DNA of 17,640 nt from a bacterium. GTDB lineage: Bacteria > UBP18 > UBA7526. The position numbers and the translations under genes were made by a program. Shown piece by piece: positions 3 through 17,567 of the stretch. Under the pieces are notes generated by a model. It had not been told where the DNA came from. It worked only from the letters and a program-made list of their open reading frames with translations, and did no database searches. The stretch lies in assembly GCA_030619985.1 (NCBI GenBank), contig JAUXAI010000021.1:1-17640 (forward strand). The letters run 5' to 3'. Numbering within the stretch: the stretch's first letter is position 1; each line of letters begins with the position of its first letter.

Positions 3-1733
3 GCGGTCATCGCTGTCCCTGGCCAGTCAGTGATCATAAGGCACCTGAGACTCCCTTCTGGAGCAAGGGAGAGATTAGATCAGGTAATTAAGTTCGAGGC
101 CCAGAACCAGATCCCCTTCCCCTTAGATAAGGTGGGTATGGACTACCAGGCTCTGCCCGGGAAGGAGGGGGAAGAGGTAAAGGTCATCTTAGCTGCCATG
201 AAGCAGGAACTCATCGATGACCGTCTGGCTCTGGTTGAGGGGGCAGAACTTAGCTGTGTGGCGATGGACATCTCCTCCCTCGCCCTCTATAATGCCCTGA
301 GGTTCAGGAAGCCCCCTAAAGAGGCGGAGGTGGTAGCCTTGATAGACATCGGGGCCACGACCACAGACATCAGCATCCATCGGGATGGGGTGCTGGAGTT
401 CACCAGGAGCGCACCGGTAGCTGGGAATGATTTGACAGGGGCCATTCAGTATAAGCTCGGGGTATCCTTTAGCGAGGCGGAGAAGTTGAAGAGGGAAGAG
501 GGGGATGCCCTTTTCCAGGCACCTGAGAGACCTCCTGAAATTCCTTCCGTTCCGGAAAGACCACCAGAGGCTGCGCCCCCAGAGATTCCACCCACACCAG
601 AAAAACCACCTGAAAAACCGCCCGAAATACCTCCTGCACCCGAGAAACCACCAGAAGTTCCTCCTTCACCAGAGAAGCCGCCTGAAGTTCCACCTGCTCC
701 AGAGAAACCACCTGAAAAACCACCCGAGATACCTCCTGCACCCGAGAAACCACCAGAAGTTCCTCCCGCTCCCAATCCCACCTCCCAGGTAGCCAGTGCT
801 CTCTCTCCCGTATTAGAGAACCTATTCGCTGAGATCCGGCGCTCTTTGAACTACTATCGCTCCCAGCCAGGTGGGGCGGATATCACCAAGGTCATCCTCT
901 CTGGAGGGAGTGCCCGACTCAAGAACTTAGAGAGGTTCTTATCTCAGAGGCTCGGGGTTCCGGTTGAGATCGCCGATCCCCTATCTCAAATTAAATATGA
1001 CCCCGCTATCTTCAAATTGAAGGAGATACTGCCCTCCTTTAGCGTGGCAGTGGGATTGGCCTTGAGGGCCATTGAATTGGGCGAGGTAAGAATAAGCCTC
1101 CTTCCCCAGATCGTGAAGGAGAGGGTGCTCATCCAGGCCAGGAAGAGAAACCTCATGATTGCTGCTGGTCTGGGAGTGGCGATTATTATCTTCAGTGGCC
1201 TTCTATTTTTACAGAGGATTCAGCAGAGAGAGGCGAGATTGGCCCAGGTTGAAGCAGAACTGGAGAAGATAAAGGACATCGTTCCCAAGGTGGAGAAGCT
1301 TAAAAGAGAGAAGGCAGCGGTGGAGAAGAGAGAAAAGGTCATTACTGGATTACTTACTGAGAAAGCAAAATGGCTCGATGTTCTCTTGGAGATGACCAGG
1401 GTCTTTCCCTCCTCTATCTGGCTTAAGAACCTCTCTTTGCCAACAAAGGAGAGCGCCAGCATCTCTGCCCAGGCAGGTTCTGTAGAGGCGGTCTCCAACC
1501 TCATGATAAGGCTCAAGAGCTCACCCTATTTTGAAGAGATAAATCTGGGGAGCGTATCCACACCAAAGGAGGGTGAAGCGGTGAGCTTCCCCATGAAATG
1601 GAAGATCAAAAAGGTAATAAAGAGGATGGAAGAGGAACCTGCAACCGCAGAGACCGCAGAGTCCGCAGAGGAAAAGAAGAAGGTCGGTCTAAGAGAGAGG
1701 CTTAAGGAGAAAAAAGAGGAATTGGAGGAGTAA
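3..1733 (+). CDS. pilM: PilM-PilN fusion protein, type IV pilus inner-membrane platform (5' partial)
   Basis: This protein joins the cytoplasmic actin-like PilM to the bitopic PilN, which normally bind each other in the T4P alignment complex. The frame is open to the window edge. The codons before the GTG at 30 read AVIAVPGQSVIIRH, a typical internal PilM segment, so the true start lies upstream and GTG 30 is not the start. The PilM part shows the nucleotide-binding motif IDIGATTTDI at 342-371 and the later ILSGGSARLKN motif near 894-926. A Pro/Glu-rich insert (about 519-780) interrupts PilM before the conserved segment that begins EIRRSLNYY. The PilN part starts at VRISLLPQ (about 1086). It has a membrane helix at about 1149-1214, a charged coiled coil, and a small alpha/beta domain containing WLDVLLEM and SIWLKNLSL. 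The tail is Lys/Glu-rich. PilM and PilN are usually separate genes; I see no stop or restart between them. The family call is firm, and the fusion is directly visible. Confidence 0.93.
   Translation, partial: AVIAVPGQSVIIRHLRLPSGARERLDQVIKFEAQNQIPFPLDKVGMDYQALPGKEGEEVKVILAAMKQELIDDRLALVEGAELSCVAMDISSLALYNALRFRKPPKEAEVVALIDIGATTTDISIHRDGVLEFTRSAPVAGNDLTGAIQYKLGVSFSEAEKLKREEGDALFQAPERPPEIPSVPERPPEAAPPEIPPTPEKPPEKPPEIPPAPEKPPEVPPSPEKPPEVPPAPEKPPEKPPEIPPAPEKPPEVPPAPNPTSQVASALSPVLENLFAEIRRSLNYYRSQPGGADITKVILSGGSARLKNLERFLSQRLGVPVEIADPLSQIKYDPAIFKLKEILPSFSVAVGLALRAIELGEVRISLLPQIVKERVLIQARKRNLMIAAGLGVAIIIFSGLLFLQRIQQREARLAQVEAELEKIKDIVPKVEKLKREKAAVEKREKVITGLLTEKAKWLDVLLEMTRVFPSSIWLKNLSLPTKESASISAQAGSVEAVSNLMIRLKSSPYFEEINLGSVSTPKEGEAVSFPMKWKIKKVIKRMEEEPATAETAESAEEKKKVGLRERLKEKKEELEE
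519..780 (+). repeat. Pro/Glu tandem repeat inside the PilM domain
   Basis: Codons here repeat PEKPPE, PPEVPP and PPEIPPAP units. A stretch of about 68 bases at 597-664 recurs almost unchanged at 699-766, an offset of 102 bases (34 codons), so the array grew by in-frame duplication. It lies between the conserved PilM segment ending AEKLKREEGDALF and the one beginning SPVLENLFAEIRR. The insert is likely an extended, rigid polyproline-type loop. Glycine-rich frames on the opposite strand are shadows of this repeat. Confidence 0.9.
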
Positions 1734-1923
1734 ATGAATCCCGCCCCTCTTTGTAATTCGTTGAGAAATCGATATAATAAAGACGCCTCCGCTAAAGGCG
1801 GAGAACTTTGTTATTCCCCCGCGTCTTTAGTAGACGAGGCAAGCGGAGCGCGTCGTCATAATAAAAATAATCTCGTACTATTTAAAATAACAAATTGTAC
1901 CACAGAAGGAGGGGCGGGATGAA
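1734..1923 (+). repeat. Palindromic spacer element whose right end supplies the pilO ribosome binding site and abuts its start
   Basis: The spacer begins right after the pilMN stop. ATCCCGCCCCTC at 1738-1749 is the exact reverse complement of GAGGGGCGGGAT at 1909-1920. The right arm contains the Shine-Dalgarno GGAGGGG and the first two bases of the pilO ATG. ATGAA occurs immediately at the left end (1734-1738) and again at the right end (1919-1923), like a 5-base target duplication. Nested inside are AAAGACGC (1779-1786) with GCGTCTTT (1821-1828), a CTCCGC/GCGGAG hairpin (1787-1803) and a CGTCT/AGACG hairpin. Removing one ATGAA plus the element would place GGAGGAG, at the end of pilMN, five bases before ATGAAG. 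A short reading frame here (MNPAPLCN...) looks non-coding. The element at 17441-17567 has matching ends. Confidence 0.7.
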
Positions 1924-7515: not shown

Positions 7516-7680
7516 ATCTAAAGTAGAATAGTGGACTAGTTGGAATAGTTGGATTAAAATCCAACTCAGCGACCCTGTCGCCAGTAAATTAGTAGATTAG
7601 GTGGATTGGTGAATTGGTTGGAATGAGGGGTATAATCCAACTAGTATCCTAATCCAACAAATTTCCTTCTTCTAAAAAAG
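7516..7680 (+). repeat. Dyad of degenerate AGTTGGATTA repeats upstream of the OB-fold gene
   Basis: The whole spacer is repeat. AGTTGGATTAAAATCCAACT (7548-7567) is a near-perfect palindrome. The words AGTTGGAAT and ACTAGTTGGA on the left face ATCCAACTAG and ATCCTAATCCAAC on the right. Between them lies CAGCGACCC (7567-7575), identical to the core of the spacer at 2459-2594, here within a GCGAC/GTCGC hairpin. It is followed by 8-base words such as GATTAGGT, GGATTGGT and GAATTGGT. I see no convincing Shine-Dalgarno before the following ATG. Confidence 0.72.
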
Positions 7681-16093: not shown

Positions 16094-16337
16094 GAAGTAA
16101 CAAGTTAACAAGGATACAAGTTAACAAGATTGTCCAAAGTCGTTGGTAGTTGGGTTAGGGCAAAGTAGTGAGTTTGGTAGTTGGGTAAGGGTTAGGTGTT
16201 TAAAGACCAACTACCTAACCCAACAACTAAACCAACAACCTAACCTTAACCCTAACCAAATGTTTTCTTATTTACTTGTCAACTTATCAACTAATCAACT
16301 TGTCAACTTATTAACTCCCGAACGGAGTGAGGGTCAG
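16094..16337 (+). repeat. Large nested dyad of degenerate repeats upstream of hydrolase copy 2
   Basis: Outer arms: ACAAGTTAACAAG words (about 16100-16133) face CTTGTCAACTT and ATCAACTAATCAACTTG (about 16277-16315). Inner arms: GGTAGTTGGGTTAGGG (16145-16160) and GGTAGTTGGGTAAGGG face CCAACTACCTAACCCAACAAC (16208-16228) and ACCTAACCTTAACCC. The ends GAAGTAACAAG (16094-16104) and CCGAACGGAGTGAGG (16318-16332) match those of the spacer at 2459-2594. ACTCC-CGAAC-GGAGT at the right end can fold over the Shine-Dalgarno of the next gene. The frame happens to stay open through the repeat, giving a false N-terminal extension of that gene. Confidence 0.78.
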
Positions 16338-17440: not shown

Positions 17441-17567
17441 ATGAACCCCGCACCTCCTACTGTATTTATCATATTTATCTTTTGAAAATAGAAGAAGCGA
17501 GAACTGGATTGAGTTTACCAAGTACAACACAGAATCTTATTGAATTATAAGGAAGGTGCGGGATGAA
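17441..17567 (+). repeat. Palindromic spacer element abutting the start of the last gene, sister of 1734-1923
   Basis: CCCGCACCT (17447-17455) is the exact reverse complement of AGGTGCGGG (17554-17562), which runs right up to the ATG at 17563. GGGATGAA flanks both sides (17438-17445 and 17560-17567). The right arm includes GGAAGG, a usable Shine-Dalgarno. The arms differ from those at 1740-1748 and 1910-1918 by one base pair (C-G there, A-T here), with pairing kept. The interior, AT-rich and about 97 bases, is not visibly similar to the other copy. Confidence 0.65.

Follow-up and report, generated by a model that had tools for sequence, protein, structure and literature searches.

What is the palindromic spacer that separates pilN from pilO in this genome, and how does it come to end exactly on a start codon? 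The question is raised by a window of 17,640 nucleotides (UBP18 lineage UBA7526, contig JAUXAI010000021.1). Gene-dense genomes leave few safe places for a mobile element. The reading favoured here is that the spacer belongs to a family of mobile elements that duplicate the target TNAA, and that the long class of this family is seated on RTGAA start codons with the reading frames on both sides intact, nearly harmless to the host. Judged from sequence comparison, its probability is roughly 0.83.

Two copies in one window

The window (contig C36 of genome G000) contains two copies of one element type, both on the forward strand. Copy 1 occupies 1739–1919 at the pilN|pilO junction. Its inverted arms lie at 1739–1750 (TCCCGCCCCTCT) and 1908–1919 (GGAGGGGCGGGA), and a TGAA flanks it on either side (1735–1738 and 1920–1923). 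Upstream, a fused pilM–pilN reading frame (3–1733) ends in a TAA stop immediately before the element. Downstream, pilO (1919–2458) starts on the element itself, and Pfam matches to PilM_2, PilN and PilO surround the copy. The right arm carries a Shine–Dalgarno sequence and the A of the pilO ATG; the TG of the right-hand TGAA completes the codon. This A, which precedes the right TGAA as the last base of the element, pairs in copy 1 with the base that opens the left arm. Copy 2 spans 17446–17563 (118 bp, arms CCCCGCACCTCC and GAAGGTGCGGGA) between TGAA repeats at 17442–17445 and 17564–17567. Its last A and the TG that follows form the ATG of an ORF (MKKSRRWW...) extending past the contig end. 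A relative of this copy lies in genome G004 (L181:7338–7458).

The palindromic spacers and their shared architecture are present as an earlier note on this DNA described them. So is the ribosome-binding site that the element supplies ahead of the pilO ATG, to which the first base of the start codon can be added. The 12-base complementary ends that the note placed at 1738–1749 and 1909–1920, around a 185-base spacer, are real, but with the boundaries given above the element measures 181 bp. ATGAA does stand at both edges; the direct repeat, however, is the 4-bp TGAA, and the A belongs to the element. The pilO spacer had also been taken for a single element, and proves to be a composite of two different repeats. 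Nested within it at 1774–1865 is an interspersed repeat unrelated to the element, 84 bp net (approximately 1774–1857), with ATAATAAA at both edges (1774–1781 and 1858–1865). These edges are possibly the nested repeat's own duplication. The 84-bp span has no counterpart in the pilO element of G002, a genome of the same genus, which is 97 bp long. Related copies of the repeat (GACGCCTCCGC...GTCGTC) occur elsewhere in G000 and in five relatives, and hence in all six genomes of the family, some of them in tandem. The repeat is a separate, later arrival in the pilO element.

The window has other repeats as well. The fused PilM–PilN protein contains a proline-rich repeat (PPEKPPEIPPAPEKPPEV..., window 575–766). 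An inverted repeat with 8-base tandem repeats (CTTATCAACTAAT...) lies at 16143–16314 within the start of a called ORF; it is probably intergenic, and the true gene start is likely to be later. A further long inverted repeat is found in an intergenic gap at 7526–7654 (22 nt, 77% complementary, 85 nt apart).

A dispersed family that duplicates its target

Both window spacers fit the general form TGAA-[Y CCCGC N CCT ... AGG N GCGGG R]-TGAA. Copies of this form are non-coding, 25–190 bp in size and have complementary ends of about 11 bp. The stretches scanned came to approximately 550 kb of G000, 735 kb of G002 and 171 kb of G004. They yield 73 exact pairs with equal TNAA flanks in 1.45 Mb, and none in each of three dinucleotide shuffles; most of the stretches were chosen on contigs that had hits, a choice that biases copy density and leaves position unaffected. 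Allowing at most one mismatch, the right-end motif is found 79 times in G000, compared with three times for the reversed pattern, and 28–77 times per genome in five genomes of the window's family. The relatives include metagenome-assembled genomes of uncultured bacteria (CSMAG_2709, CSMAG_2684 and HyVt-354). The additional copies that the earlier note had proposed to look for are thus plentiful, both in the genome and among its relatives. Their interiors are very diverse, and many are found at one locus only.

The flanks reveal the target. Among 149 nearest pairs of ends, the outer four bases are equal as TGAA/TGAA in 67, TCAA/TCAA in seven, TAAA/TAAA in five and TTAA/TTAA in one. The flanking repeat is a target duplication rather than element sequence because both sides change together. 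The 4-bp duplication is directly visible where an empty site can be set beside a filled one. G000 L112:5011–5118 is filled by a close sister of the element at pilO, and G002 L148 is empty there (GGAGGTAGGAATGAGGGTT); the filled site G000 L117(-):562–699 corresponds to an empty one in G002 L141 (GAGGAATGATGAAGGAG); and for a TCAA copy (L099 versus L142) the empty site is TCAA. Elements are also nested within one another at TGAA. The pilN|pilO junction itself was predicted to read GTAAATGAAGCTC once the spacer is removed, and one relative, G005, has exactly this sequence (...GAGTAAATGAAGCTC). It is empty in G003 as well (...GGAGGAGTAGAAGATGAAGCTC), and occupied in G001 by a different spacer sequence without the element. 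Kinship labels and similarity make it most likely that an ancestor shared by G000 and G002 acquired the pilO copy. The insertion that the earlier note proposed is therefore supported at the junction that it considered and at others.

These empty sites refute a reading in which the spacers are not mobile at all, merely conserved leaders or chance palindromes ahead of genes. Some copies do stand at the same gene across genera (G002 L141 and G004 L199), as a conserved leader would. Nesting, the 4-bp duplications, the occurrence of differing elements at one junction and the count of 73 against 0 in shuffles all speak against it, and it is scarcely credible. Almost as improbable is a single-strand element of the Y1 type (IS200/IS605 or REP/RAYT), whose right end would include TGAA so that the repeat mimics a target duplication. 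The strong preference for one tetranucleotide and the palindromic ends recall such elements. The flanks co-vary, however (TCAA/TCAA, TAAA/TAAA), the empty site that corresponds to the TCAA copy reads TCAA, and the six genomes contain no Y1 transposase (PF01797). The elements are short and non-coding, with terminal inverted repeats, a target-site duplication, dispersed multiple copies and presence/absence polymorphism. By structure, as far as sequence can define it, the element is a MITE.

Position at start codons

The long copies (76–190 bp) stand in a particular place: in 33 of 39, an ORF of 130 or more codons starts on a codon formed by the right end, start codons here being ORF predictions. 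Among TGAA copies of all sizes, 43 of 67 open such an ORF at the right end, compared with 619 of 2589 non-disruptive TGAA sites in the background (Fisher p = 7e-12; orthologous copies were counted separately between genomes, so that this and the other p-values overstate independence). The codon is made from the element's last base, A or G, and the TG of the duplicated TGAA, behind the Shine–Dalgarno sequence of the element; in the 33 long copies, GTG is formed 23 times and ATG ten times. In 13 of these 33 the left TGAA doubles as the stop codon of an ORF of 80 or more codons upstream; for unoccupied RTGAA starts the corresponding figure is 24 of 191 (p = 5e-4). A generic anti-Shine–Dalgarno sequence matches the right end better than the reversed left end (median -11.8 versus -7.0 kcal/mol, p = 2.5e-4). 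Of the RTGAA starts in the examined sequence that have a recognisable Shine–Dalgarno, about 18% (43/234) are occupied by a copy. The proposal that insertion takes place at ATGAA starts holds for the seat on starts, with the target refined to TNAA, mainly TGAA. The shorter classes (25–75 bp) have the same ends and TNAA duplications and lie mostly away from starts. In subfamilies with several members, our impression from few cases is that the interior has one orientation at starts and is flipped among copies off starts, as if the right end mattered only where a gene follows.

The proposed sequence of events is as follows. (i) Insertion at R^TGAA would duplicate TGAA. (ii) For the long class, the site would nearly always be the RTGAA start of an operon gene, often an ATGA or GTGA stop–start overlap. 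(iii) The left TGAA would retain the upstream TGA stop where the genes had overlapped as RTGA. (iv) The right TGAA, together with the terminal A or G of the element, would yield ATG or GTG behind the element's AGGNG, and translation would proceed from this new site. (v) With both reading frames intact, such a transposition event would be close to harmless, in agreement with the earlier expectation for operons. Stop–start overlaps couple translation, and reinitiation has been argued to fall with distance (PMC6728339); an insertion of 100 bases would therefore be costly without a new ribosome-binding site. The family seems to rebuild the signals that it interrupts: target bases restore the stop, and the end of the element restores the start.

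The same arrangement is encountered outside the family. A search of 386 genomes with the exact two-ended pattern and an interior of 65–95 bases finds 32 copies in the window's family, spread over five of its six genomes, and one copy in each of four unrelated genomes (G155, G293, G091 and G222); the reversed control gives none anywhere. A looser pattern finds six copies in G091. All nine copies in the unrelated genomes have at their right end the start of an ORF of 92 codons or more, and in three of the nine the upstream TGA is the left TGAA. The search pattern made no demand for a gene start, so these copies are independent support for the start seat. We take the genes concerned, from their protein starts, to include rplW, adk, rplI and feoB. 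The phyla of G293 and G091 are sampled by two and four genomes, respectively. The two-ended pattern was not found in viral contigs. That the family's design recurs in lineages unrelated to one another suggests a type of element that has been overlooked. In three G091 copies (L236, L237 and L238), a second stretch resembling the right arm is visible by eye inside the element, near the left arm; it could pair with the left arm in place of the Shine–Dalgarno arm.

Whether the elements seek out start codons or merely survive there is a separate matter. The mobilising machinery itself may prefer start codons or stop–start overlaps, through DNA context, transcription or translation; we hold this tentatively, as somewhat less likely than not. 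Six long copies that are polymorphic between the same-genus genomes (G000 L112:5015, L117(-):566, L111:3612 and L119(-):2917; G002 L136:4158 and L142(-):12645) are all at start codons (p = 2e-4 against a background of 24%); for three of them (L111, L119 and L142) the empty allele differs upstream as well. The nine copies in unrelated genomes point the same way. So does one junction, which we take to be rpsB|tsf. It is occupied in G000 by an element of 103 bp, in G002 by another, different one of 50 bp, and in G004 by a 50-bp relative of the latter that has a nested insertion. Against this, the short classes share the ends and TNAA duplications and mostly lie elsewhere than at starts, and copies away from starts show no extended target motif. 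Only survivors are visible, so selection could yield the same picture, and the background of harmless intergenic sites rests on crude ORF calls. An equally tentative extension would make these copies part of a wide element class, in which the machinery recognises start codons or stop–start overlaps and the right end has been moulded to provide a ribosome-binding site together with the initial base of a start codon, so that operons of several unrelated lineages have been colonised with their frames unbroken.

A role for the host is less probable still. The element could be a translation-coupling device whose left arm sequesters the Shine–Dalgarno arm until a ribosome that terminates at the left TGA unfolds the stem, and which the host retains for this reason; we consider this unlikely. 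The arms do co-vary at their variable positions (position 11 is paired in 76 of 77 copies, 35 being expected), the left TGAA is frequently the upstream stop, and some copies are common to different genera. In folding models of the 33 long start copies, the Shine–Dalgarno is predicted to be unpaired with a value of 0.10 when the molecule is free and 0.48 when the left arm is held open. Any inverted-repeat element has complementary ends, however, so folding alone proves nothing, and copies away from genes have matching arms too. Host selection for arm pairing is unsupported because, in orthologous copies, arms change no slower than interiors (8/220 versus 30/544, p = 0.36). Arm co-variation may instead reflect the needs of transposition or shared ancestry.

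Mobilisation and known elements

For the TNAA-duplicating mobile element favoured here, the inverted ends and short duplication lead us to infer that a DDE-type transposase mobilises it in trans. Searches for the transposase families PF01609, PF13701 and PF01797 find no genes in the six genomes; these are three of many families, and draft genomes often lose multicopy genes. An IS4/IS5-type DDE transposase and an IS1380-derived origin (PF13701 in none of six genomes) were rejected accordingly. In the stretches read, no long copy with the same ends bears a transposase, the long end pairs considered as autonomous copies look like neighbouring short copies, and no multicopy ORF qualifies as a transposase. 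The diversity of the interiors is unlike a fresh MITE burst, which counts against the favoured explanation.

Several known systems share features with the family. Prokaryotic MITEs (reviewed in PMC10969869; MITEAba12, PMC6382973) are likewise short, non-coding and multicopy, with inverted ends and a target duplication, and can be nested and polymorphic. MITEAba12 duplicates 9 bp of target with no preferred sequence, is able to disrupt genes and shares its genome with a parent IS (PMC6382973), whereas the elements here duplicate TNAA, their long copies rebuild start codons, and the stretches read contain no parent. The Chunjie MITE of Geobacter uraniireducens is 178–235 bp long (PMC10969869); its title and its description in that review do not mention start-codon rebuilding. 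IStrons (PMC4227781) are also mobile elements with insertions rendered harmless, but they carry an IS gene and achieve this through a self-splicing group I intron. If the elements here are harmless, it is through the rebuilt stop, ribosome-binding site and start; Rfam, including its catalytic introns, gives no match above gathering score at the window copies or the nine copies in other genomes.

IS1380 family members and their derivatives have CC- ends and 4–5 bp duplications. The C-rich ends and 4-bp duplication are thus shared with the elements here, though PF13701 is absent from the six genomes. HEARO and IscB-associated elements have a reported preference for ATGA/GTGA, a lead that may indicate a common preference for RTGA. 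Those elements are far longer and come with a nuclease gene, whereas the ones described here have a true target duplication and lack both an Rfam match and a Y1 transposase. Literature searches by end sequence, by MITE and start codon, and by HEARO, with most subscription literature outside their reach, found no description of the codon-rebuilding start seat; the Chunjie MITE and IStrons come closest in concept. Such a family offers a way to test how transposons come to land where they do no harm. In these lineages it also affects the annotation of gene starts and how much translational coupling is estimated.

Individual loci add further detail. A TCAA copy at one locus has its interior inverted between genomes (G000 L097:14846–14907 versus G002 L146:5300–5430), and the G002 copy holds an extra nested element. 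Ahead of another gene, a 102-bp element (G000 L097:19394–19495, G002 L146:9760–9861, G004 L184 near 3888) is near-identical between genera, while the gene flank is about 81% identical; either recent spread or conservation would explain this. A different 102-bp copy contains an epimerase-like start sequence, MKILITGGAG (G000 L112(-):12098–12199, G002 L133:13503–13604 and G002 L150(-):4422–4523). In L112 it adjoins the remainder of an epimerase-like gene and the frame reads through, with an arm lying within the glycine-rich motif; this copy, and that in L133, were rejected as plain start-site insertions. In L150 the MKILITGGAG sequence is found ahead of a different gene and is bordered by TGAA left and right, which looks as though a piece of host DNA had been picked up and carried along.
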